From Anabaena sp. PCC 7108 (GTDB lineage: Bacteria; Cyanobacteriota; Cyanobacteriia; Cyanobacteriales; Nostocaceae), in assembly GCF_000332135.1 (NCBI RefSeq), contig NZ_KB235896.1, positions 4,580,356 to 4,644,355 on the forward strand: DNA of 64,000 nucleotides, in the 5' to 3' direction. Positions 5,033-50,668 of the stretch are shown in pieces; the first letter of the stretch is position 1; each line of letters starts with the position of its first letter. The position numbers and the translations under genes are program-made. The notes beneath the pieces are model-generated. The model worked only from the letters and a program-made list of their open reading frames with translations, had not been told where the DNA came from and ran no database searches.

Positions 5033-6940
5033 TTACAATAATTCTGTAATCGAAAATTGTCGCTGTTTGTCTAGTTCTTGTAGTCGCGTTTTTTCAGCAT
5101 ACATAGCGTCTGCATAATATTTATATTTATCTGGTTCTGCTTGGATATCTATGTTCTCCCATAGTTCCATAAAGTGACGACAGCGCTTTTCTCTCAAGAC
5201 TATTTCCATACAAGCCAGCGTTGCTTGAACTACTTGGGGAGTACGCAATATTTCTTTATTGGTTTTCTCATTTAAATTAAATAAATGAGCAACTAATACT
5301 AATTCTTCTGATAATTCTAAATATCGATTTTGTAAACTGGAAATTAAATCAGCTTCGTCTGTTAATTCGGAAATCTGTAACCATAAAAAACGGTGATGAG
5401 AAAGGCTCAATTCTAAATTTCGCTCTTCTAATTCGTTAATTATTACTTGACGCTGTTCTGGACAATGGAGATAAATTTGCAATAATAACGCCTCGGCTCG
5501 TTCTAGTAGACTACGTTCTGTATTTACTAGAGATAGCTTTGGCGTTTTAGGCTCCTGTTTGCGTACTCTTGCACTTGGGCTTTGTACGTTAGTAGGAGAA
5601 ATTCGAGTTAGTAAGTTCTCAACTCTTAGAGGAATAAGTCTAGCGTCCCCTAAGCTGAGTATTTCTGCACAGTAGGAAATGTAGTAATTAAGAGTATCAC
5701 TATTAACTATATTTTGCAAGAGTTTTACTATTTGTTGCGTGACTTGTTGAAAGTCGGTAGCTTGTCTTAAATCTCTATTTTGAATAATTTGGTGAATTTG
5801 CCAATTTAGCCATAATGGGGCGTTGGTTAATAGTTGCTGATAATCTGCGGCTGTATGACTATGTAAATATTCATCAGCATCTTTACCGTTGGGTAAGTTA
5901 AGAATTTTTAATTGCACTTCGCCTTGATATGCTAATGTTGCAATTTCACCAATCGCTCTTTCGGCGGCGTTGGTTCCAGCTTTGTCAGCATCAAAGTTGA
6001 GTACTAGTTGTTTGGAATCGGTGTAACGCAAGAGTAAACGGACTTGTTCTATGCTTAAAGCTGTTCCCAGAGAAGCGACGGCGTTATTAATTCCCGCAGC
6101 ATGGAGAGCGATCGCATCAAAGTATCCCTCAACTACCACAGCTTGATCTAATTTAGCAATTCCGTCTTTAGCTTGATCTAGAGCAAATAAGGTTTTACCT
6201 TTACTAAAAAGTTCTGTTTCTGGGGAATTTAAATATTTTGGTTGTTCTTCTGTCAGTGTTCTCCCACCAAAAGCAATTACTCGCCCTTGTACGTCACGAA
6301 TAGGAATCATCAACCTATCCCGAAATACATCATAATATCCACCGCCTTCTTTCCTCGGTTTAATCAAACCTGCCTTTTCCACCAATTGCACTGGGTAACG
6401 TTTATCTTCCACCAAATACCGATGCAGGGTTTCCCAACCAGAAGGCGCATAACCTAAACCAAATTGTTGAATTGTCTCTTCTTTAAGTTGGCGACTCTCC
6501 TGTAAATACTGCATTACCTTTTGTTGCTGCGTGTGTCTGAGGGCGTGTTGATAAAATTGGGCTGTGGAAGCCAAAACCTCATACAACTGCTCACGCAGAG
6601 ATAACTGGCGCTGTAATTCTTGCCTTTGTTCTGGTTCTAAGGTTTGTACAGGGACTTGGTAACGTCGCGCTAAGTCTAGTACCACTTCTGTAAAGTGGCG
6701 TTTACTCAAATCCATGACAAACTTAATGGCGTTACCTCCAGCTTGACAACCGAAGCAATAATACATTTGCTTATTTGGACTGACGCTGAAACTGGGGCTT
6801 TTCTCATCATGAAAAGGGCATAAACCAACAAAATCTTTTCCGCGCTTCCGTAAGACTACATACTCCGAAACAACATCAACAATGTCAGCGCGGAGTTTGA
6901 CTTCTTCAACTGTGTCTGGATGTAAGCGGGGGATTTGCAT
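5033..6940 (-). CDS. dnaG: DNA primase DnaG
   Basis: Synthesises RNA primers for replication. At 635 residues it shows the standard order: a CHC2-type zinc finger with C41, H44, C62 and C65 (CPFHDEKSPSF...YYCFGC), the RNA polymerase core, and a TOPRIM fold with VVVEGYFDAIALH and LNFDADKAG, followed by a helicase-binding C-terminal region. The gene is isolated on the minus strand. Its ATG is only six bases from a heptamer array of about 157 bases that fills the 5' leader, and no Shine-Dalgarno sequence is visible there. Confidence 0.97.
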   Translation of the reverse strand: MQIPRLHPDTVEEVKLRADIVDVVSEYVVLRKRGKDFVGLCPFHDEKSPSFSVSPNKQMYYCFGCQAGGNAIKFVMDLSKRHFTEVVLDLARRYQVPVQTLEPEQRQELQRQLSLREQLYEVLASTAQFYQHALRHTQQQKVMQYLQESRQLKEETIQQFGLGYAPSGWETLHRYLVEDKRYPVQLVEKAGLIKPRKEGGGYYDVFRDRLMIPIRDVQGRVIAFGGRTLTEEQPKYLNSPETELFSKGKTLFALDQAKDGIAKLDQAVVVEGYFDAIALHAAGINNAVASLGTALSIEQVRLLLRYTDSKQLVLNFDADKAGTNAAERAIGEIATLAYQGEVQLKILNLPNGKDADEYLHSHTAADYQQLLTNAPLWLNWQIHQIIQNRDLRQATDFQQVTQQIVKLLQNIVNSDTLNYYISYCAEILSLGDARLIPLRVENLLTRISPTNVQSPSARVRKQEPKTPKLSLVNTERSLLERAEALLLQIYLHCPEQRQVIINELEERNLELSLSHHRFLWLQISELTDEADLISSLQNRYLELSEELVLVAHLFNLNEKTNKEILRTPQVVQATLACMEIVLREKRCRHFMELWENIDIQAEPDKYKYYADAMYAEKTRLQELDKQRQFSITELL

Positions 6941-23678: not shown

Positions 23679-23772
23679 TTATGAATTACGTATCCCTGGA
23701 GCCGTAGGCTCTATTACGAATTACGAATACGGTTCTGTTAATTCTTCTTGTTCCCCAAGTAAAAATAATCAT

Positions 23773-25947
23773 ATGCAACATGAAATAATTGCAGGAAATG
23801 CTCAACCTACCTCCAAATTCTTCGCTCTATTAATAGGGATTGATGTTTATCTACCGAACAGATTACCTGATGGTTCTTACTACGGCAGTCTTCAGGGATG
23901 CTCGCGCGATATTAACCATGTAGAATCTTTTCTGAAAAATACCCTGCAAATACCAGAATCACAGATTTTTAAATTAACGGCTTCTCACTCGGATACTCCC
24001 AATCAGCTAAAAGAGCCTGCGGAAGAGTTACCAACCTATGAGAATATTATCGCCCAATTTCAGAGACTCACTGATTTGGCTCAATCTCAAGACCAAGTAT
24101 ACATTCACTATTCTGGTCACGGTGGACGTGCTGCAACAATTTATCCAGAACTTAAAGGAAAATACGGTTTTGATGAGAGCCTTGTACCCACGAATATTGG
24201 CAACTCAGAAGCTCGCTATATCCGTGACTTAGAATTAGCAAAAATCCTCCAAAATATGGTAGATGAAGGGCTAGTTGTCACAATAGTGTTAGATAGTTGT
24301 CATTCTGGAGGTGCAACAAGGGGAGGAGTAGATGCTGTTGGGATTCGCGGTTTGAGCAGTAATGTGATAGATACAACACCACGACCCCAAGATAGCCTAG
24401 TTGCATCTACTGAAGAATTAGTGCAGCATTGGCAAAACTTAACACAAGGACAAGCAAAGGCTCGTAATTTGACAGCTACCAGTGGTTGGTTACCCGAACC
24501 TCAAGGTTATGTTTTATTGGCTGCTTGTCGGGATAATGAGTATGCTTATGAGTATTCTTTCAATGGTACAGAACGCAACGGTGCATTGACCTATTGGCTA
24601 TTGGACTCTCTGCAAAAACTAGGAAATGAAGTTACTTACAAGGTACTACATTCACGTATCTTGGCAAAAGTCAACAGTCAGTTTAAACAGCAAACACCTA
24701 TGTTGCAAGGTGAGGGTGATCGCATTCTTTTCAGTGGTCAATCAACGGTTTCTCCGTCTGCTGTGATTGTTAAGAAAGTAGATGTAGCAAAGAATCGGGT
24801 GCTGTTGCAAGCAGGGGAAGCACAAGGTTTGCGTAGGGGTGTAGAGTTTGCTATCTACGAATTAGGCACAGCGGATTTAACCCAGACTCACAAGCGAGTT
24901 GCCCTGGCTAAAATTGTAGAATTGGATGCTGAAGAATCCTGGGCGGAAATTACTCAACTTCTAGTAAAACAAGAGGTGATTCGTACACCTATTCAGCCAG
25001 TACCTACTCTTAAAGAAGGAATGATTCAAGATGGCACTTATGCCTTACAACTCAGTCCTAGTGTAAAGCTTGTCCGCAAGGTATGCCTGTTAACCTCTAC
25101 CGATAATCAACTGAGTTCAGGTATAAATATTACAGAAGCCTTAACAGCAGTCACAGCCGCAAAAGCAAGAGTAGAAGGCAATAGCTGGGTAGAATTTTTG
25201 TCTCTTGATGAACCTAATGAAGAACCTGTCAGCTACCAGGTATCTGTGAATGCACAAGGTGAGTATGAAATCCTTGATGCTGGGGGAGAATTAATTAATT
25301 TGCGATCCTCATTACCAGTAAGTATGCCAAATGCTGCCAGCAGTTTAGTCAATCGCTTGGTACATTTGGCTAAATATCAAGCTACTTTAGAGTTAGATAA
25401 TAACGATCCTTTGTCTTCTTTAGCAGGCAAGTTACAAATTGAGTTATGCCAACCTGGAGAAAATCGGAATGAATTATTACCATTGAATACTTCTGGTAAC
25501 TATCCAATCCTGAATGTGGGTGAATACGTTATCTTACGTATCCGTAATCAGTCTTTCCAGGTTTTCAATATTACCACCTTGGCAATTCAGCCAGATTGGA
25601 GTATTTCCCAGCTACACCCTAAAGGTGCTGCTAACTTTGAACCTTTAGATCCGGGAATGGAGACATTTGTTCGCATCCATACTAGCCTTCCAGACGGGTA
25701 TCAAGAAGGTGTTGATGTTATCAAAGTGTTTGCAACTGTGGGTGCAACTAATTTCCGTTATCTAGAACTACCAGCTTTAGACCAACCCCGTAGAGGAACA
25801 CAAAACTTGAGAGCAAACAACCCTCTGGAAGAATTATTGGCGGCTGTAGCTAGTGAACAAGCCCCAAATCGAAATTTGAGTGCGGCAGCTTATCCCAGTG
25901 ATAATTGGACAATGGAGCAGGTGCATATTGTTGTAAGGTTGGTATAA
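23773..25947 (+). CDS. Orthocaspase/metacaspase-like caspase-family protease
   Basis: A 724-residue protein with an N-terminal p20-like caspase domain (about 15-320). The catalytic dyad is visible: H116 in YSGHGG and C176 in LDSCHSGG, with FALLIGIDVY at the first strand. Such proteases generally cleave after Arg/Lys. The remaining 400 residues hold beta-rich modules; about 560-690 (LNVGEYVILRIRNQS...FVRIHTSLPDG) resembles the DUF4384-type module found on other cyanobacterial caspases. ATG 23773 is preferred; the frame is open further upstream but that part reads through a dispersed repeat (TACGAATTACGAATAC). The next gene encodes a CHAT protease, so two caspase-clan enzymes are adjacent. Confidence 0.9.
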   Translation: MQHEIIAGNAQPTSKFFALLIGIDVYLPNRLPDGSYYGSLQGCSRDINHVESFLKNTLQIPESQIFKLTASHSDTPNQLKEPAEELPTYENIIAQFQRLTDLAQSQDQVYIHYSGHGGRAATIYPELKGKYGFDESLVPTNIGNSEARYIRDLELAKILQNMVDEGLVVTIVLDSCHSGGATRGGVDAVGIRGLSSNVIDTTPRPQDSLVASTEELVQHWQNLTQGQAKARNLTATSGWLPEPQGYVLLAACRDNEYAYEYSFNGTERNGALTYWLLDSLQKLGNEVTYKVLHSRILAKVNSQFKQQTPMLQGEGDRILFSGQSTVSPSAVIVKKVDVAKNRVLLQAGEAQGLRRGVEFAIYELGTADLTQTHKRVALAKIVELDAEESWAEITQLLVKQEVIRTPIQPVPTLKEGMIQDGTYALQLSPSVKLVRKVCLLTSTDNQLSSGINITEALTAVTAAKARVEGNSWVEFLSLDEPNEEPVSYQVSVNAQGEYEILDAGGELINLRSSLPVSMPNAASSLVNRLVHLAKYQATLELDNNDPLSSLAGKLQIELCQPGENRNELLPLNTSGNYPILNVGEYVILRIRNQSFQVFNITTLAIQPDWSISQLHPKGAANFEPLDPGMETFVRIHTSLPDGYQEGVDVIKVFATVGATNFRYLELPALDQPRRGTQNLRANNPLEELLAAVASEQAPNRNLSAAAYPSDNWTMEQVHIVVRLV

Positions 25948-26104
25948 CATGATCAGATAATATTCATCTTCCATCACTCCAGACAGAGAAAAAATATAAA
26001 TACTCAAATTGTGCATAAGAAACAGTCAAACCAATGAACTTATTCATATTAGTAATTGGTAACTTATTTATTCGATACTAGGATATTCTTTGCAGAGAAA
26101 ATAT

Positions 26105-26992
26105 ATGTCTAATCTTCCTTCAGAGCTACTGATCCGATTAAAAAATATTCTAGTACAGTGCGAACAATTTGAAAGCGATTACAGACTAATGTATTTTTTT
26201 AAAACCGGGGAATCTCTGTCACCTTGGTATTTGAACATTCCCCAGGCAAATAGCCTTGAGAGCAGGGTAGACAATGTAATTGCCTTTTTACTTGATAAAC
26301 ATCTGAGAGGCACCCAAGAGAACGCCCTTGTCCTACTCTTACGTTCACTAAGTAATTCAATAAATCAGCAAGATGAACGCCATGAAAAACTGACAGATTT
26401 AGCAGTTGAATTGAAAACTACCCTTGGAAGTTCAATACATACTGCCTTAAAATCTATCTTATTGTTAGCTGCGAATCCCAAAAATACGCCAAGCTTACGT
26501 TTGCAAGAAGAAGAACGAGAAATTAGAAAATGTTTGCGTAATGGTCAAGTCCTCAATACAAGTCCGGCGACCCAAGCAAGAGATATTCAAAAGTTGATGC
26601 TGTCTTTTCAGCCACAGATTGTGCATTTTAGCGGTCATGGAGCAGGAGAAAAGGGATTGGTTTTTGAAGATGTTTCAGGAGAAAAAACAATAATTAGTTC
26701 TGAAGCACTAGCAAATATGCTTGAATCGCATTCAAGAACAGTGAAATGTGTTGTTCTCAATGGTTGCTACTCAAAATTTCAGGCCGAGGCGATTGCTCAA
26801 CATATTGATTTTGTCATTGGTATGAGTCAAGATATTGGAGATCGTGCAGCCATTGCGTTTTCTGTCGGTTTTTATACTGCTTTAGGATTTGATAGAGATA
26901 TTGAAGAATCTTATAAACAAGGTTGTAAACAAATTGAAATAGACTATCCTACAGAACACTCAATCCCAGTTATCTTTAAAAAAAAACAATAA
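26105..26992 (+). CDS. EAD-like plus CHAT protease protein
   Basis: A 295-residue protein. Residues about 3-100 (ELLIRLKNILVQCEQFESDY...LEELR-like helices) resemble the effector-associated death-like domains (EAD) that bring bacterial conflict proteins together. Residues about 115-292 form a CHAT domain, a caspase-clan cysteine protease: ILLLAANP at the first strand, H178 in HFSGHG and C221 in VLNGCYS. The frame ends in TAA directly after an A9 run (26978-26986). A -1 shift there would fuse it to the open frame that runs to 27618, giving about 504 residues. ATG 26105 is taken; TTG 26090 is an alternative. Confidence 0.85.
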   Translation: MSNLPSELLIRLKNILVQCEQFESDYRLMYFFKTGESLSPWYLNIPQANSLESRVDNVIAFLLDKHLRGTQENALVLLLRSLSNSINQQDERHEKLTDLAVELKTTLGSSIHTALKSILLLAANPKNTPSLRLQEEEREIRKCLRNGQVLNTSPATQARDIQKLMLSFQPQIVHFSGHGAGEKGLVFEDVSGEKTIISSEALANMLESHSRTVKCVVLNGCYSKFQAEAIAQHIDFVIGMSQDIGDRAAIAFSVGFYTALGFDRDIEESYKQGCKQIEIDYPTEHSIPVIFKKKQ

Positions 26993-27618
26993 AAGCAAAT
27001 CACGAGGAATACTTTAGTCAAGCACAACTTTATATCTTCAATAGTTATCGTAGATGCTTAGAAATTGACGATGTTTGTCGTGACATTCTAAAAGAATTAA
27101 GGAAGGACTTAGAATTGTCTTCTAAAGTGAGCGATGAAATTGATCAGGAAATTATAGGATACTGTTTTTATTGGGAACAGCAACTAAGTAAATATAAAGA
27201 ACAGTTATTAAGGATTATTGAGGAAGAGAAAGTATTTACTCAGAATGCACGAAAAAAGATGAAAGATTGGCAAGAACATCTAAAATTAGATGCTGATATA
27301 TGCGAAATTTTTTATATTAATTTTGCTAACGAACTATATAAAAAGAACCAGATCAACCTGGCTCTTTTAATGTTTGATGAAGTTATTAATATGCAGAACA
27401 GCCTTGTCCCTATTGCTTATGAAACAAAGGGATATATTCTTTACCTTGAAGGAGAAAAGGATAAAGGTATTAATGAAATCAAGAATGCATTAAGATGTTA
27501 TAATGAGTTAAATTCCAATACTAAAAAAGCTGAAGAACTAGATAAAATACTTCGAGAACTTAAACCGGTTAACCATTTTTTAGATAATTTGTTTAGATCG
27601 CTATTTATATGGAAATAA
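26980..27618 (+). CDS. Helical-repeat/TPR-like region, probably the frameshifted C-terminus of the CHAT protein
   Basis: The frame is open from 26980 and reads convincingly as protein from 26995, but has no ATG/GTG/TTG before TTG 27115. It shows two tandem ~45-residue helical units (first around YRRCLEIDDVCRDILKEL, second around YKEQLLRIIEEEKVFTQNAR), then a TPR-like pair (YINFANELYKKNQINLALL and AYETKGYILYLEGEKDKG). The first unit begins upstream of the TTG, which argues for continuous translation from the CHAT gene by -1 slippage on A_AAA_AAA. Against this, AAGGAAGGA lies seven bases before TTG 27115, which could start a separate 167-residue protein. A single-base sequencing error in the A run is a third possibility. 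Confidence 0.65.
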   Translation, partial: KKTIKANHEEYFSQAQLYIFNSYRRCLEIDDVCRDILKELRKDLELSSKVSDEIDQEIIGYCFYWEQQLSKYKEQLLRIIEEEKVFTQNARKKMKDWQEHLKLDADICEIFYINFANELYKKNQINLALLMFDEVINMQNSLVPIAYETKGYILYLEGEKDKGINEIKNALRCYNELNSNTKKAEELDKILRELKPVNHFLDNLFRSLFIWK

Positions 27619-27879
27619 ATCGATCTCTGCTGTGACTGTGACTTAAAGGAAAAGTGAGCTTTTCGCTCAAGATATGCTTCAAACATTGTGGTTCATTTTA
27701 TGTTTCAGAAATGTAGTCAAAGCAGAAAACTAATCATTTCTATGTAATACAGGGTAAAGTTAATAACCTAATTGTGTATTATGTATATTATGTGTCTTAT
27801 AAGGAAAGATTGTTGTACCGAATAATCGCTCAATGTGCCGTTAGTTGTAGTTGGGAACACAATTGGTAAAGTTCTTCTA

Positions 27880-28359
27880 CTATGTCTTGGAGGAGTAGTA
27901 TTGTTTTCTAGCTTCTTCAATAAATGTAATATCAATAACAGCGAATGCAGTCTTCGTTATCCGTTCATCTCCCACCAAAGATACCAGCCAGTTAGTTTTT
28001 TTAGCTTCTTCTATCGCTTGAGAACGAATATTTTTAAGTTCTAACTGCACTTGTAACGTCAATGCTTCAACTACTGCTTTTTTCGCTTGTTCACGTATAG
28101 TATCTTCTAGAGAATTTTTTAACTCCTTTTGAACCTTTCTCCCGACAAATTGCACAATATTATTTCCCTCAACCTTAATTTTGCGTCTGGCGTTAGGAGC
28201 CTCAGGGGAATTTGTAAATAACAGGGAAAATAACGCAATAGCACAAATATAAGTTTTACAGGATTTGGGTCCCACCCAACAGGCTATTTGTAGAAATAGG
28301 ATGAATCCTAAACCTACAACCCCAGCTTCGACAGATTTATCCTTCTCGTTGTCTGACAT
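27880..28359 (-). CDS. Small membrane protein with amphipathic helix, unknown function
   Basis: Not recognised. The 159-residue product has two hydrophobic segments (about 12-30 and 36-50) and then a long, charged helical region from about 58 to 120 (VGRKVQKELKNSLEDTIREQ), followed by a mixed C-terminus. No signal peptide cleavage motif and no catalytic residues stand out. It is transcribed toward the CHAT/TPR gene. A role with those proteases is possible from position only. Confidence 0.6.
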   Translation of the reverse strand: MSDNEKDKSVEAGVVGLGFILFLQIACWVGPKSCKTYICAIALFSLLFTNSPEAPNARRKIKVEGNNIVQFVGRKVQKELKNSLEDTIREQAKKAVVEALTLQVQLELKNIRSQAIEEAKKTNWLVSLVGDERITKTAFAVIDITFIEEARKQYYSSKT

Positions 28360-28668
28360 ACCCTTATTTCAGTTATTTCTGAGAATTATGACACTTTTCT
28401 AAATCCATCGATTTTGAACCAGTAGCGAAAGTTCCCCACAACGTTACCATCGACAGGGTTAAGAAAGCGTCATAGCAAACCTCTAATGCTTATAATTGCT
28501 TAGGTTCTGCTGTAATGATGTATTGAGGGAATAAACCACCCAAAAAACTCAAGAGACAATGTTTTTTAGAGATTGTTAGCTTTTCCCCTACTGTTAATCA
28601 ACCCCACACCCTTTTTAAATTTCCTGTAAAATCAACATTTGAAGACAGTGCAACAGGAGAAAACAGGC
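28360..28668. other. Gene-free stretch upstream of pdxJ
   Basis: Contains the divergent promoters of the small membrane protein and pdxJ. I see no riboswitch-like fold, repeat or RNA gene. The pdxJ ribosome-binding site AGGAG is at 28655-28659. Confidence 0.5.
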
Positions 28669-33567: not shown

Positions 33568-34449
33568 TCATTCATGGTTTGTCGCTCGTAAATAGCTAGA
33601 TACTGTATTTTGCAATAACATAGCCACGGTCATCGGTCCAATGCCACCAGGGACTGGGGTGAGGTATTCTGCCACCTTAGCAGTTTCGGCAAAGTCTATA
33701 TCACCGACTAAATGACTTTTGCCACTGCTATCAGTGACACGATTTATCCCCACATCTACCACAACAGCGCCCGGTTTCACCATATCAGCAGTGATTAGTC
33801 CGGGAAGGCCTGCTGCTGCAATGAGAATATCAGCATTTTGGGTGATAGTTTTTAAGTCTTGCGATCGCGAATGAGCGATAGTAACTGTAGCATTAGCCTC
33901 TAATAGCATCAAGGCCATGGGCTTACCTACCAAAATACTCCGTCCTACCACTACTGCCTGTTTTCCCTCCAGAGAAATTTGATATTCTTCCAGTAGTCGC
34001 ATGACACCAGCGGGGGTACAACTGCGTAAACCTGCTTCTCCTCGCACCAGTCGTCCTAAGTTAACCGGGTGTAGTCCGTCTACGTCTTTGTCTGGTTCTA
34101 TTTGATGTAAAAGAGCGATGCTATCTAAATGACCAGGTAAAGGTAACTGTACCAGAATTCCATCCACCTGTTCATCTTGGTTAAGTTGTGCTATTACCGC
34201 TTCTAGTTCTGTGAAGGTAATGTTGGAGGGAAAATCTTTACCAAAGGAGGTAATACCCAATTTCGCACAGGCTTTTTTTTTGTTGCGGACATAAGCTGCT
34301 GAGGCTGGATTATCACCAACCATTAGCACTGCTAAACCTGGGGGACGACCGATTTTGGGTTTTAATTCTGCAATAGTCGCAGCTAGTTCTTTGTAAATTT
34401 TTTCTGCTAATGCTTTACCATCGAGCAGTTTGGCAGTTTTTGTTTCCAT
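33568..34449 (-). CDS. folD: Methylenetetrahydrofolate dehydrogenase/cyclohydrolase FolD
   Basis: Bifunctional enzyme interconverting 5,10-methylene- and 10-formyl-tetrahydrofolate with NADP. The 293-residue length is standard. The catalytic Lys lies in [12 protein letters not shown], the substrate loop is VQLPLPGH, the NADP site is [16 protein letters not shown], and the C-terminal signature is [16 protein letters not shown]. First gene of the minus-strand folD-crtE-PAP2 run; a small lipoprotein gene is divergently transcribed from the other side of a 190-base gap. Confidence 0.97.
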
Positions 34450-36987: not shown

Positions 36988-37788
36988 ATGTTACTAAATC
37001 GAGAAAAAATCGAATTTTACTTAACAGACCTAGAAACAACTATTGGTAAAACAATTAATTTAACAATTGTAACTCTAGTCTTATTATCATCAGGAATTTT
37101 TGTGGCAGAAACCTATAATATTTCTGATGATGCTCACTTAGAGTTAAGAGCATTAGATACCTGCATATTAATAATTTTTGCTGTCGAATATTTACTACGT
37201 TTATGGAGTGCGGAAAAAAAAATAAAGTATATTTTTAGTTTTTATTCAATTATTGATCTAATAGCTATTTTACCCTCTTTTATAGGATTAGTAGATATTA
37301 GCTTTATTCGCCTGTTACGCTGGTTTAGGATTTTGCGATTAATTAGATTTATAGATACAAAATTTTTATTTGGGAGTATCAGTAGCGAAGATGGGGTAAT
37401 TTTTGCGCGGATATTATTTACTTTATTTGCCATAGTTTTTGTTTATTCTGGCTTAATTTATCAAGTTGAACATTCAGTCAACCCACAAAATTTCGGCACT
37501 TTTTTAGATGCCTTTTATTTTTCAGTTGTGACGATGACAACTGTAGGCTTTGGTGATGTCATACCCGTTTCCGAATTAGGTCGTTTACTCACGGTTTTGA
37601 TGATTCTCACAGGAGTAGCGCTGATTCCTTGGCAAGTGGGAGATTTAATTAAGCGGTTAGTAAAAACTGCCAATCAGGTAGAAACTATTTGTTCAGGTTG
37701 TAGTTTAGCTTTTCATGATGCAGATGCAGTTTTTTGTAGGAGGTGCGGAACTAAATTACCAAAAAATGACCAAAATAATGTTATGTAA
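36988..37788 (+). CDS. Voltage-gated-type potassium channel with C-terminal zinc ribbon
   Basis: A 266-residue protein of the six-helix ion-channel superfamily. A voltage-sensor-like S4 is visible in SFIRLLRWFRILRLIRFID with Arg every third or fourth residue. The pore loop TMTTVGFGDV carries the K+ selectivity filter and is followed by S6. After a short amphipathic helix the protein ends in a zinc ribbon (CSGCSLAFHD...FCRRCG). The coding region starts 21 bases after a MITE-like copy, leaving little room for an independent promoter. Channel call is secure; the role of the ribbon is unknown. Confidence 0.9.
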   Translation: MLLNREKIEFYLTDLETTIGKTINLTIVTLVLLSSGIFVAETYNISDDAHLELRALDTCILIIFAVEYLLRLWSAEKKIKYIFSFYSIIDLIAILPSFIGLVDISFIRLLRWFRILRLIRFIDTKFLFGSISSEDGVIFARILFTLFAIVFVYSGLIYQVEHSVNPQNFGTFLDAFYFSVVTMTTVGFGDVIPVSELGRLLTVLMILTGVALIPWQVGDLIKRLVKTANQVETICSGCSLAFHDADAVFCRRCGTKLPKNDQNNVM

Positions 37789-49897: not shown

Positions 49898-50668
49898 TTA
49901 ATTAATTTTTAACTGCTTAGTCAAAAATTCTTGTAAGAAGAGTTTGAGAATAAACCAAGGTTCAACTAGATAGCGTTTCCAAAGTCTTTTTGGTTCACTC
50001 AACAAACGGTATAGCCATTCAAAACCCAAACGCCCCATCCAGCGAGGAGGAGTAGGTATTGCACCGGCCACATAATCTATACAAGCACCACTGGGAAGGA
50101 TGACGTTCGCACAAATCTGTTCTAGATTATCGAGAATCCAGTTTTCTTGTCGAGGCATACCCATACCTACCATTAATATGTGCGGTTGGTAAGCTGTAAT
50201 TTGTGACAAAATTTCCTGGTTTTCTGGACTCTCAGAATTAGAGTCAATGTAACCATGATTGGTTTTAATCTCTAAACCTGGAAATTTATCACGTAGGATA
50301 TTAGCACCAGTTTCTGCTACTCCTGGTTTTGAGCCTAAGTAAAAAATCCGCCACTTTTGTTGATGAGCTTCTGTCATTAGCGTCCATACCCAGTCTGCAT
50401 AGGTAACTCTATGTTCTCGTTGCAAAGGTAGTCCTAAACGCTGTCCTAGTAATACCAAGGCCATACCATCTATATGTGTGTAATCTGCTTTGGCATAAAA
50501 AGTCTGCATTTTTTTTTGGTGATGATATAGATACAGACTGTGTAAATTGTGGTTAGCAATTATCCATTTTTGATTTTGTTTTACAGCTGCCCCAATAAGC
50601 AAATTAAGTTCATTAATAGTCAATGCTTGGGCGTGAATACCTAAAAAATTATAGAAAGTTTTATCCAT
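49898..50668 (-). CDS. WecG/TagA/CpsF family glycosyltransferase
   Basis: A 256-residue GT26-type enzyme transferring a sugar (N-acetylmannosaminuronate or N-acetylmannosamine type in known members) to a lipid-linked intermediate. The family motifs are present: THIDGMALVLLGQRLG, RIFYLGSKPGVAE, LMVGMGMPRQENWI, GACIDYVAGAIPTPPRWM and GFEWLYRLLSEPKRLWKRY. Eighth gene of the locus, 50 bases downstream of the GT2 gene. Confidence 0.95.
   Translation of the reverse strand: MDKTFYNFLGIHAQALTINELNLLIGAAVKQNQKWIIANHNLHSLYLYHHQKKMQTFYAKADYTHIDGMALVLLGQRLGLPLQREHRVTYADWVWTLMTEAHQQKWRIFYLGSKPGVAETGANILRDKFPGLEIKTNHGYIDSNSESPENQEILSQITAYQPHILMVGMGMPRQENWILDNLEQICANVILPSGACIDYVAGAIPTPPRWMGRLGFEWLYRLLSEPKRLWKRYLVEPWFILKLFLQEFLTKQLKIN

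Follow-up and report, generated by a model that had tools for sequence, protein, structure and literature searches.

The bDLD1-CHAT protease gene of Anabaena sp. PCC 7108 is probably subject to productive -1 frameshifting, here by transcriptional slippage, with a short protease and a protease-sensor fusion as the predicted products. The gene lies in a stretch of 64,000 nucleotides (the window, to which coordinates refer unless a locus is named) from a 5.9-Mb genome in 3 contigs. Judged from sequence, it is a member of a class of CHAT and CHAT-TIR genes, recurrent in cyanobacteria, that are split between frames 0 and -1. It carries both marks of that class, a slippery A run at the CHAT end and a partner module in a start-less -1 frame.

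The predicted short product is encoded on the plus strand, in frame 0, by an ORF that extends from an ATG at 26105 to 26992 (295 amino acids, or 300 when counted from a TTG at 26090). Its two domains both score above their Pfam cut-offs: bDLD1 at about 26114-26410 (PF20689, E=1.8e-9, 38.2 bits against a cut-off of 25) and the CHAT protease at about 26366-26884 (PF12770, E=1.5e-8, 34.9 bits against a cut-off of 24). The initial annotation had named the gene EAD-CHAT. The CHAT assignment stands, but the N-terminal domain is bDLD1, with no EAD1 model among the matches. In an alignment with 21 relatives the HFSGHG and LNGCYS motifs, in which the catalytic His and Cys presumably sit, are kept. The ORF ends just after a run of nine adenines at 26978..26986 on the plus strand, which reads AAA AAA AAA CAA TAA, the TAA stop at 26990..26992 being two codons past the run. 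Within it, A_AAA_AAA at 26980-26986 is, in frame 0, an X_XXY_YYZ slippery heptamer of the type used in -1 ribosomal frameshifting. The site also has the form looked for in transcriptional slippage, an A/T run of about 9 or more followed by an out-of-frame coding extension.

The -1 frame is open on the plus strand for 212 codons, from 26980 to 27618, so that CHAT frame and -1 frame together would give a fusion of about 504 amino acids. By arithmetic from the base composition, unselected DNA would stay open for 210 codons with a probability of about 1e-6. A scan for ATG, GTG and TTG finds the first usable start at TTG 27115..27117, 125 nt past the first base of the stop. A codon-usage model trained on 40 stretches of the same genome plus the window favours the CHAT frame through the scan segment 26900-26989 and the -1 frame from 26945-27034 onward. 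Over the 42 codons ahead of the TTG, the score of the -1 frame is -0.003 per codon. Of 482 true-frame controls 7.7% fall below this value, and 3.8% of the shifted-frame controls attain it. The codon signal of this part is thus modest, on the coding side but weak.

The protein of the -1 frame, P0002, consists of two tandem helical units ("YR" units) and a TPR-like tail. The units lie at 27064..27309 on the plus strand, where P0002 residues 29-110 match a profile of relatives with 56.4 bits, and the TTG falls inside the first of them. Without the residues ahead of the TTG the score drops to 39.5 bits. When these residues were shuffled, 0 of 500 shuffles reached 56.4 bits, the highest being 52.5. 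The profile was built from 18 relatives selected for a P0002 match that starts ahead of residue 46, and the test therefore leans toward homology ahead of the TTG. In pairwise comparison of the 45 pre-TTG residues with 21 relatives, the best relative (L027) was equalled by 3 of 200 shuffles, L013 by 21 of 200 and the remaining relatives by 57 or more. The homology indicated for the pre-TTG residues is accordingly visible by profile alone, the pairwise likeness to single relatives being unconvincing. The TPR-like segment at 27415..27501 (plus strand; PF07719, E=0.075) is below the cut-off in the window copy; TPR is above it in the relatives L005 and L209. A single-sequence AlphaFold model of P0002 is poor, with a mean pLDDT of 53.3 and residues 1-73 below 50, and is given no weight. 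The initial annotation had described the reading of the CHAT end, an open -1 frame that is protein-like from near the A run, its want of a standard start before 27115, and two helical units straddling the TTG. All of these are borne out, the protein-like character by the switch in the codon scan and the 17 bits contributed by the pre-TTG residues.

Elsewhere the same units are read in one frame. The YR units also occur within single-frame caspase and CHAT proteins, and the joining of a CHAT protease and the repeat domain in one frame, for which the initial annotation had proposed a search among homologues, is found in locus L005 (G096) as a 592-residue ORF with CHAT, repeat unit and TPR. Locus L008 (G112) resembles L005 in this arrangement. 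Although absent from the profile, L005 matches it at E=2.5e-30; BLASTP of P0002 against L005 aligns mainly the TPR parts (E=6e-05), and the repeat-unit homology of L005 does not depend on that alignment. In L003, a related module encoded as a stand-alone gene, the ATG start lies ahead of the whole repeat unit. Since the units are in a single frame in the caspases and in L005, and the ATG of L003 precedes them, the module is normally read from a point ahead of the TTG position. The downstream domain is thus not consistently a separate gene beginning at the TTG, the finding that the initial annotation had named as contrary to its proposal; the profile match, too, begins ahead of that codon. A direct search of genome contigs with the C-terminal module gave no confirmed relative, and a plasmid tblastn search gave no match with P0002 and 69 matched plasmid records with P0001.

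The arrangement recurs in other CHAT genes. We counted a frame as start-less when no start codon occurs before +30, and as open when it continues for at least 100 codons beyond the stop. After 11 of 169 CHAT ORFs with too little DNA behind the stop had been dropped, 18 of 158 distinct CHAT ORFs had a start-less open -1 frame, a figure that is not a prevalence because the CHAT loci were chosen mainly for short open frames and known cases were partly refetched. A start-less open +1 frame was found in 0 of the 158. The 764 non-CHAT control ORFs, taken from all loci examined including the 40 stretches of the source genome and without selection for short frames, gave 2 start-less frames in -1 and 3 in +1. 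Fisher's test of CHAT against non-CHAT gives 9.7e-13 with related genes counted singly. Besides the 18, the CHAT set holds 15 ORFs with an open -1 frame and 10 with an open +1 frame that have a start codon before +30, which we regarded as ordinary downstream genes. Clustering at 75% identity sorts the cases into 12 groups (with L304 and L249 included and L330 left out).

Encoded in the -1 frames are NB-ARC (alone or together with TPR or WD40), NACHT, and nSTAND1 or AAA domains related to it, and also VMAP-C, iSTAND, repeat-TPR and YidD, with FGE in L330. The matches to NACHT in L322 and L275 and to nSTAND1 in L327 are below the Pfam cut-off. A control scan of 103 CHAT matches showed CHAT-TIR genes from other families of the order whose stop comes at A_AAA_AAG-TAG or behind an A10 and whose long -1 frames encode VMAP-C in L208, iSTAND in L211 and repeat-TPR in L209. 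The last of these, from G240 (L209/L325), is the repeat-TPR module of the window, placed in the -1 frame after A_AAA_AAG-TAG (BLASTP against the window, E=1e-19). Among the matches listed in the family search, the closest relative of the window CHAT is in Nostocales cyanobacterium Centralia_MAG_434, where A9 stands at the same codons and is followed by a start-less -1 frame encoding a YidD domain (L033, L090, L136, L143 and L156 are one Centralia locus). The first -1 residues of the two genes are alike over 10 aligned residues, to which we give no weight.

Besides the window gene, three of the 18 (Centralia, G812 and G704) have a -1 frame behind an A9; the window and Centralia alone have this A9 where CHAT ends. 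The wider A-run patterns at the CHAT end gave 13 matches and 4 loci, again with a long -1 frame in these two only. At other CHAT-end junctions with at least eight adenines the frame is kept or the gene simply ends: in L200 an A9 stands at the junction in a different phase within one open frame, and L206, which has an A8, was rejected as a case since the gene simply ends. L330 was rejected as a member of the class because its break lies inside CHAT and without a slippery run; it is still counted in the 18. L249 (G535) has the A_AAA_AAG-TAG heptamer, an end it shares with the 93%-identical L328, but only 14 further -1 codons, and was not accepted as a case; its short -1 frame is probably a decayed partner half. 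L304 (G090:C6) combines an A9 and A_AAA_AAG ahead of the stop with a -1 frame of 787 codons that includes NACHT; a start at +26 makes it just miss the threshold and keeps it out of the 18. In L048/L213 (G033) a CHAT 66% identical to that of the window has a frame break inside the domain and a long +1 frame, with no slippery run seen at the break.

The ends of these ORFs are enriched in slippery sequence. Within 24 nt upstream of the stop, 11 of the 18 cases (with A6-A10) and 6 of the 140 other CHAT ORFs have a run of at least six adenines. The form NNA AAA AAG TAG ends 7 of the 18, and AAAAAAG directly before a stop ends 8 of 158 CHAT ORFs (those 7 and L249) against 0 of 764 non-CHAT ORFs; an A9 in the last 24 nt was likewise found in 0 of the 764. 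The codon before AAA AAG is GCA, CCA, ACA, CTA or GGA, so that it specifies five amino acids yet always has A as its third base, which points to selection on the heptamer. We take these A_AAA_AAG members to resemble ribosomal sites of the dnaX type. In the fold after their stops, L318 alone is clearly better than random (z -2.71), the others ranging from -1.28 to 0.03. The A9/A10 form is that of the window, Centralia, G812, G704 and G440. A further form is A_AAC_CCT (four cases) or A_GAC_CCT (one, L321) shortly before the stop. In L322 (1053-1110), L278 (2074-2131), L275 (2046-2103) and L321 (1101-1158), which make up one cluster and have a NACHT-like -1 frame, such a site is combined with an 11-bp stem whose first base is the final base of the stop codon. 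Across three distinct sequences of this stem 33 of 33 cells are paired, and in three of the pairs both partners vary; as 27 of 500 shuffles reach the same pairing counts, the covariation is supportive rather than conclusive. The combination is possibly an unusual -1 ribosomal frameshift signal. No stem-loop stimulator was found after the window site (z of the stretches 0.61, -0.01 and 0.20), and the lack of a stable RNA structure there fits poly-A transcriptional slippage.

Long homopolymers are limited in this genome. The longest A/T run in 864 kb of it is 9, with none of 10 or more, and none of 10 or more occurs in 148 other loci (660 kb, overlaps included). The A10 of L208, a locus of another family, lies outside the 1.5 Mb counted. 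That no run of at least 10 appears in 1.5 Mb although 9-mers are present suggests that run length is capped in the family. Among runs of at least 8 inside ORFs in the 864 kb, the window A9 alone adjoins a stop and a long open frame, an interrupted IS110-like transposase (named from its translation) excepted. An IS110-like copy of this kind lies on the minus strand of L190, at about 5400-5600, broken right after an A8 and with the remainder in +1. The window has three more A/T runs of nine bases (34273-34281, 37214-37222 and 50509-50517), all inside long open frames, one of them in folD (named from sequence). They would be useful controls for run-length calling and for the slippage tolerance of an essential gene.

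The gene itself stands at a variable site. On either side, a permease gene and pdxJ (both named from sequence) are conserved in four same-genus genomes (L070-L073), and in all four window positions 23690-28620 are replaced by different content, which includes a caspase with repeat units and TPR, Uma2-like ORFs (identified by eye) and others. With conserved flanks and varying content between them, the site looks like an exchange hotspot. In G087 it holds a caspase that carries these helical units and TPR within a single frame and matches NF047832 above the cut-off; the 125-residue ORF upstream of that caspase, which matched no NCBIfam model, may be read as EACC1. A minus-strand ORF of 159 amino acids at 27880-28359 of the window is hydrophobic in its N-terminal half and matches no family convincingly.

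A once continuous gene could also have been broken by replication slippage on the A run. It would then be a pseudogene or switch reversibly by phase variation, and slippage might in part restore it. We regard such a mutation as unlikely, but several observations speak for it. The window CHAT is on a long branch (0.64) and departs at 13 of 79 near-invariant columns where other rows depart at 0-8, which could mean decay. Its bDLD1 is an orphan: the source genome has one PF20689 match at E<=0.01 and no second bDLD1, although the EAD principle expects a partner. The content of the site differs in all four same-genus genomes, and A runs are likely hypermutable according to the excerpted text of PMC1088944. 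Also speaking against frameshifting here are the other 11 CHAT matches of the source genome, all in single frames of at least 516 amino acids, the sharing of the CHAT-end A9 arrangement with Centralia only, and the lack of a stem-loop after the site. Against the mutation, the -1 module is still open over its 212 codons with coding-type codon usage, the HFSGHG and LNGCYS motifs are retained, and the start-less recurrence is confined to the -1 direction over the 12 clusters. Because other CHAT genes show this -1 arrangement too, productive frameshifting is favoured over an indel peculiar to one copy. An error of sequencing or assembly in the length of the A run appears very improbable. Homopolymers are error-prone, but the three other 9-base runs of the window sit in long open frames, the Centralia genome shows the same A9 and phase in a separate assembly, the counted 1.5 Mb holds no longer run, and errors would not fall in -1 only.

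Among CHAT matches 63 of 80 run on in frame for at least 18 residues beyond the junction position of the window, which speaks for frameshifting. On the other side, 15 of 78 others, in a sample that included picked short ORFs, end within 14 residues of it, so that a stop there can be natural. The remaining alternative is two separate genes, with the downstream protein started independently at TTG 27115 or, by reinitiation, at a near-cognate codon, a reading we consider quite improbable. It gains from the purine-rich GGAAGGA 7 nt before the TTG, from the stand-alone module of L003 and from the other -1 cases tabulated, in 11 of 13 of which a start codon precedes the Pfam domain and independent downstream initiation is possible. 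A start at the TTG, however, forfeits 17 bits of the domain and follows 45 codons without ATG, GTG or TTG; the start of L003 precedes the whole repeat unit, and the first start of L318 and of L319 falls inside the NB-ARC match. Homology of the module and recurrence of the -1 arrangement in other CHAT genes thus argue for frameshifting or slippage with two products, as the initial annotation had suggested.

Under productive frameshifting, the effector half (bDLD1-CHAT, frame 0) and the sensor or partner half (helical units and TPR, frame -1) would be joined at the A9. Slippage there would most likely be by RNA polymerase, with transcripts gaining an A; a ribosomal slip on A_AAA_AAA is a possible alternative route. 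Either should yield a minority of full fusion beside a majority of short protease. The few fused copies may act as sensor or nucleator and the free bDLD1-CHAT copies as a recruitable executioner, the slip thereby setting the ratio of receptor to effector. We lean toward a more general reading, in which -1 frameshifting serves cyanobacterial NLR-like immune genes as a decoding switch that gives mostly free effector and less effector-sensor fusion. The slip sites would be A9/A10 slippage, A_AAA_AAG-TAG and possibly A_AAC_CCT with a stem-loop; the effector would be CHAT or CHAT-TIR and the sensor STAND, NACHT, VMAP-C or TPR, the window gene being the bDLD1-CHAT/repeat-TPR member. Few sensor-bearing copies could seed the assembly of many effectors, and a slippery joint may let sensor modules swap behind one effector.

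Slippage at comparable runs has precedents. Excerpts of PMC1088944, which also mentions Thermus dnaX, describe IS genes of Nostoc sp. PCC 7120 whose A8-A10 runs are inferred to slip. In tssM1 of Citrobacter rodentium an A11 run undergoes transcriptional slippage at about 20-25% (PMC4256274, in excerpt). As in the window gene, a poly-A run stands before the stop and the longer form needs slippage; a ratio of short to long form is made, and both forms are needed there (same excerpts of PMC4256274). The two differ in that tssM1 has A11 rather than A9 and encodes a secretion-system protein, and slippage is proven in tssM1 and inferred in the window gene (PMC4256274, likewise in excerpt). Given an A9 without stimulators and these tssM1 and Nostoc IS examples, transcriptional slippage is favoured in the window. 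Frameshifting in dnaX is ribosomal in E. coli and transcriptional in Thermus. Like the CHAT -1 class, dnaX uses A_AAA_AAG with a stem-loop, or an A run, for two lengths of one protein; its shifted product is the shorter one, whereas that of the window would be longer and fused. Craspase TPR-CHAT, reportedly partnered with the CRISPR gRAMP, also joins a CHAT peptidase to TPR repeats, but in the window the protease is bDLD1-CHAT and the repeats are C-terminal and in the -1 frame. The EAD/bDLD and EACC1-caspase conflict systems resemble the window gene in combining a death-like adaptor with a caspase-fold effector, and their partner domains include iSTAND, VMAP and STAND (excerpts of PMC7159879 and PMC8195603). 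The partner of the window gene is in the -1 frame, and the word "frameshift" occurs 0 times in the text of either source. Among the titles listed in our literature search, none looked like a paper that connects frameshifting or slippage to CHAT or STAND genes of immunity.

These results bear on how immune proteases such as CHAT stay safe yet ready. If the proposed switch is real, control at decoding of how many effector copies bear a sensor and how many stay free would be a simple and testable answer, and annotation would be dividing many genes of this kind into an effector gene plus a fragment without a start.
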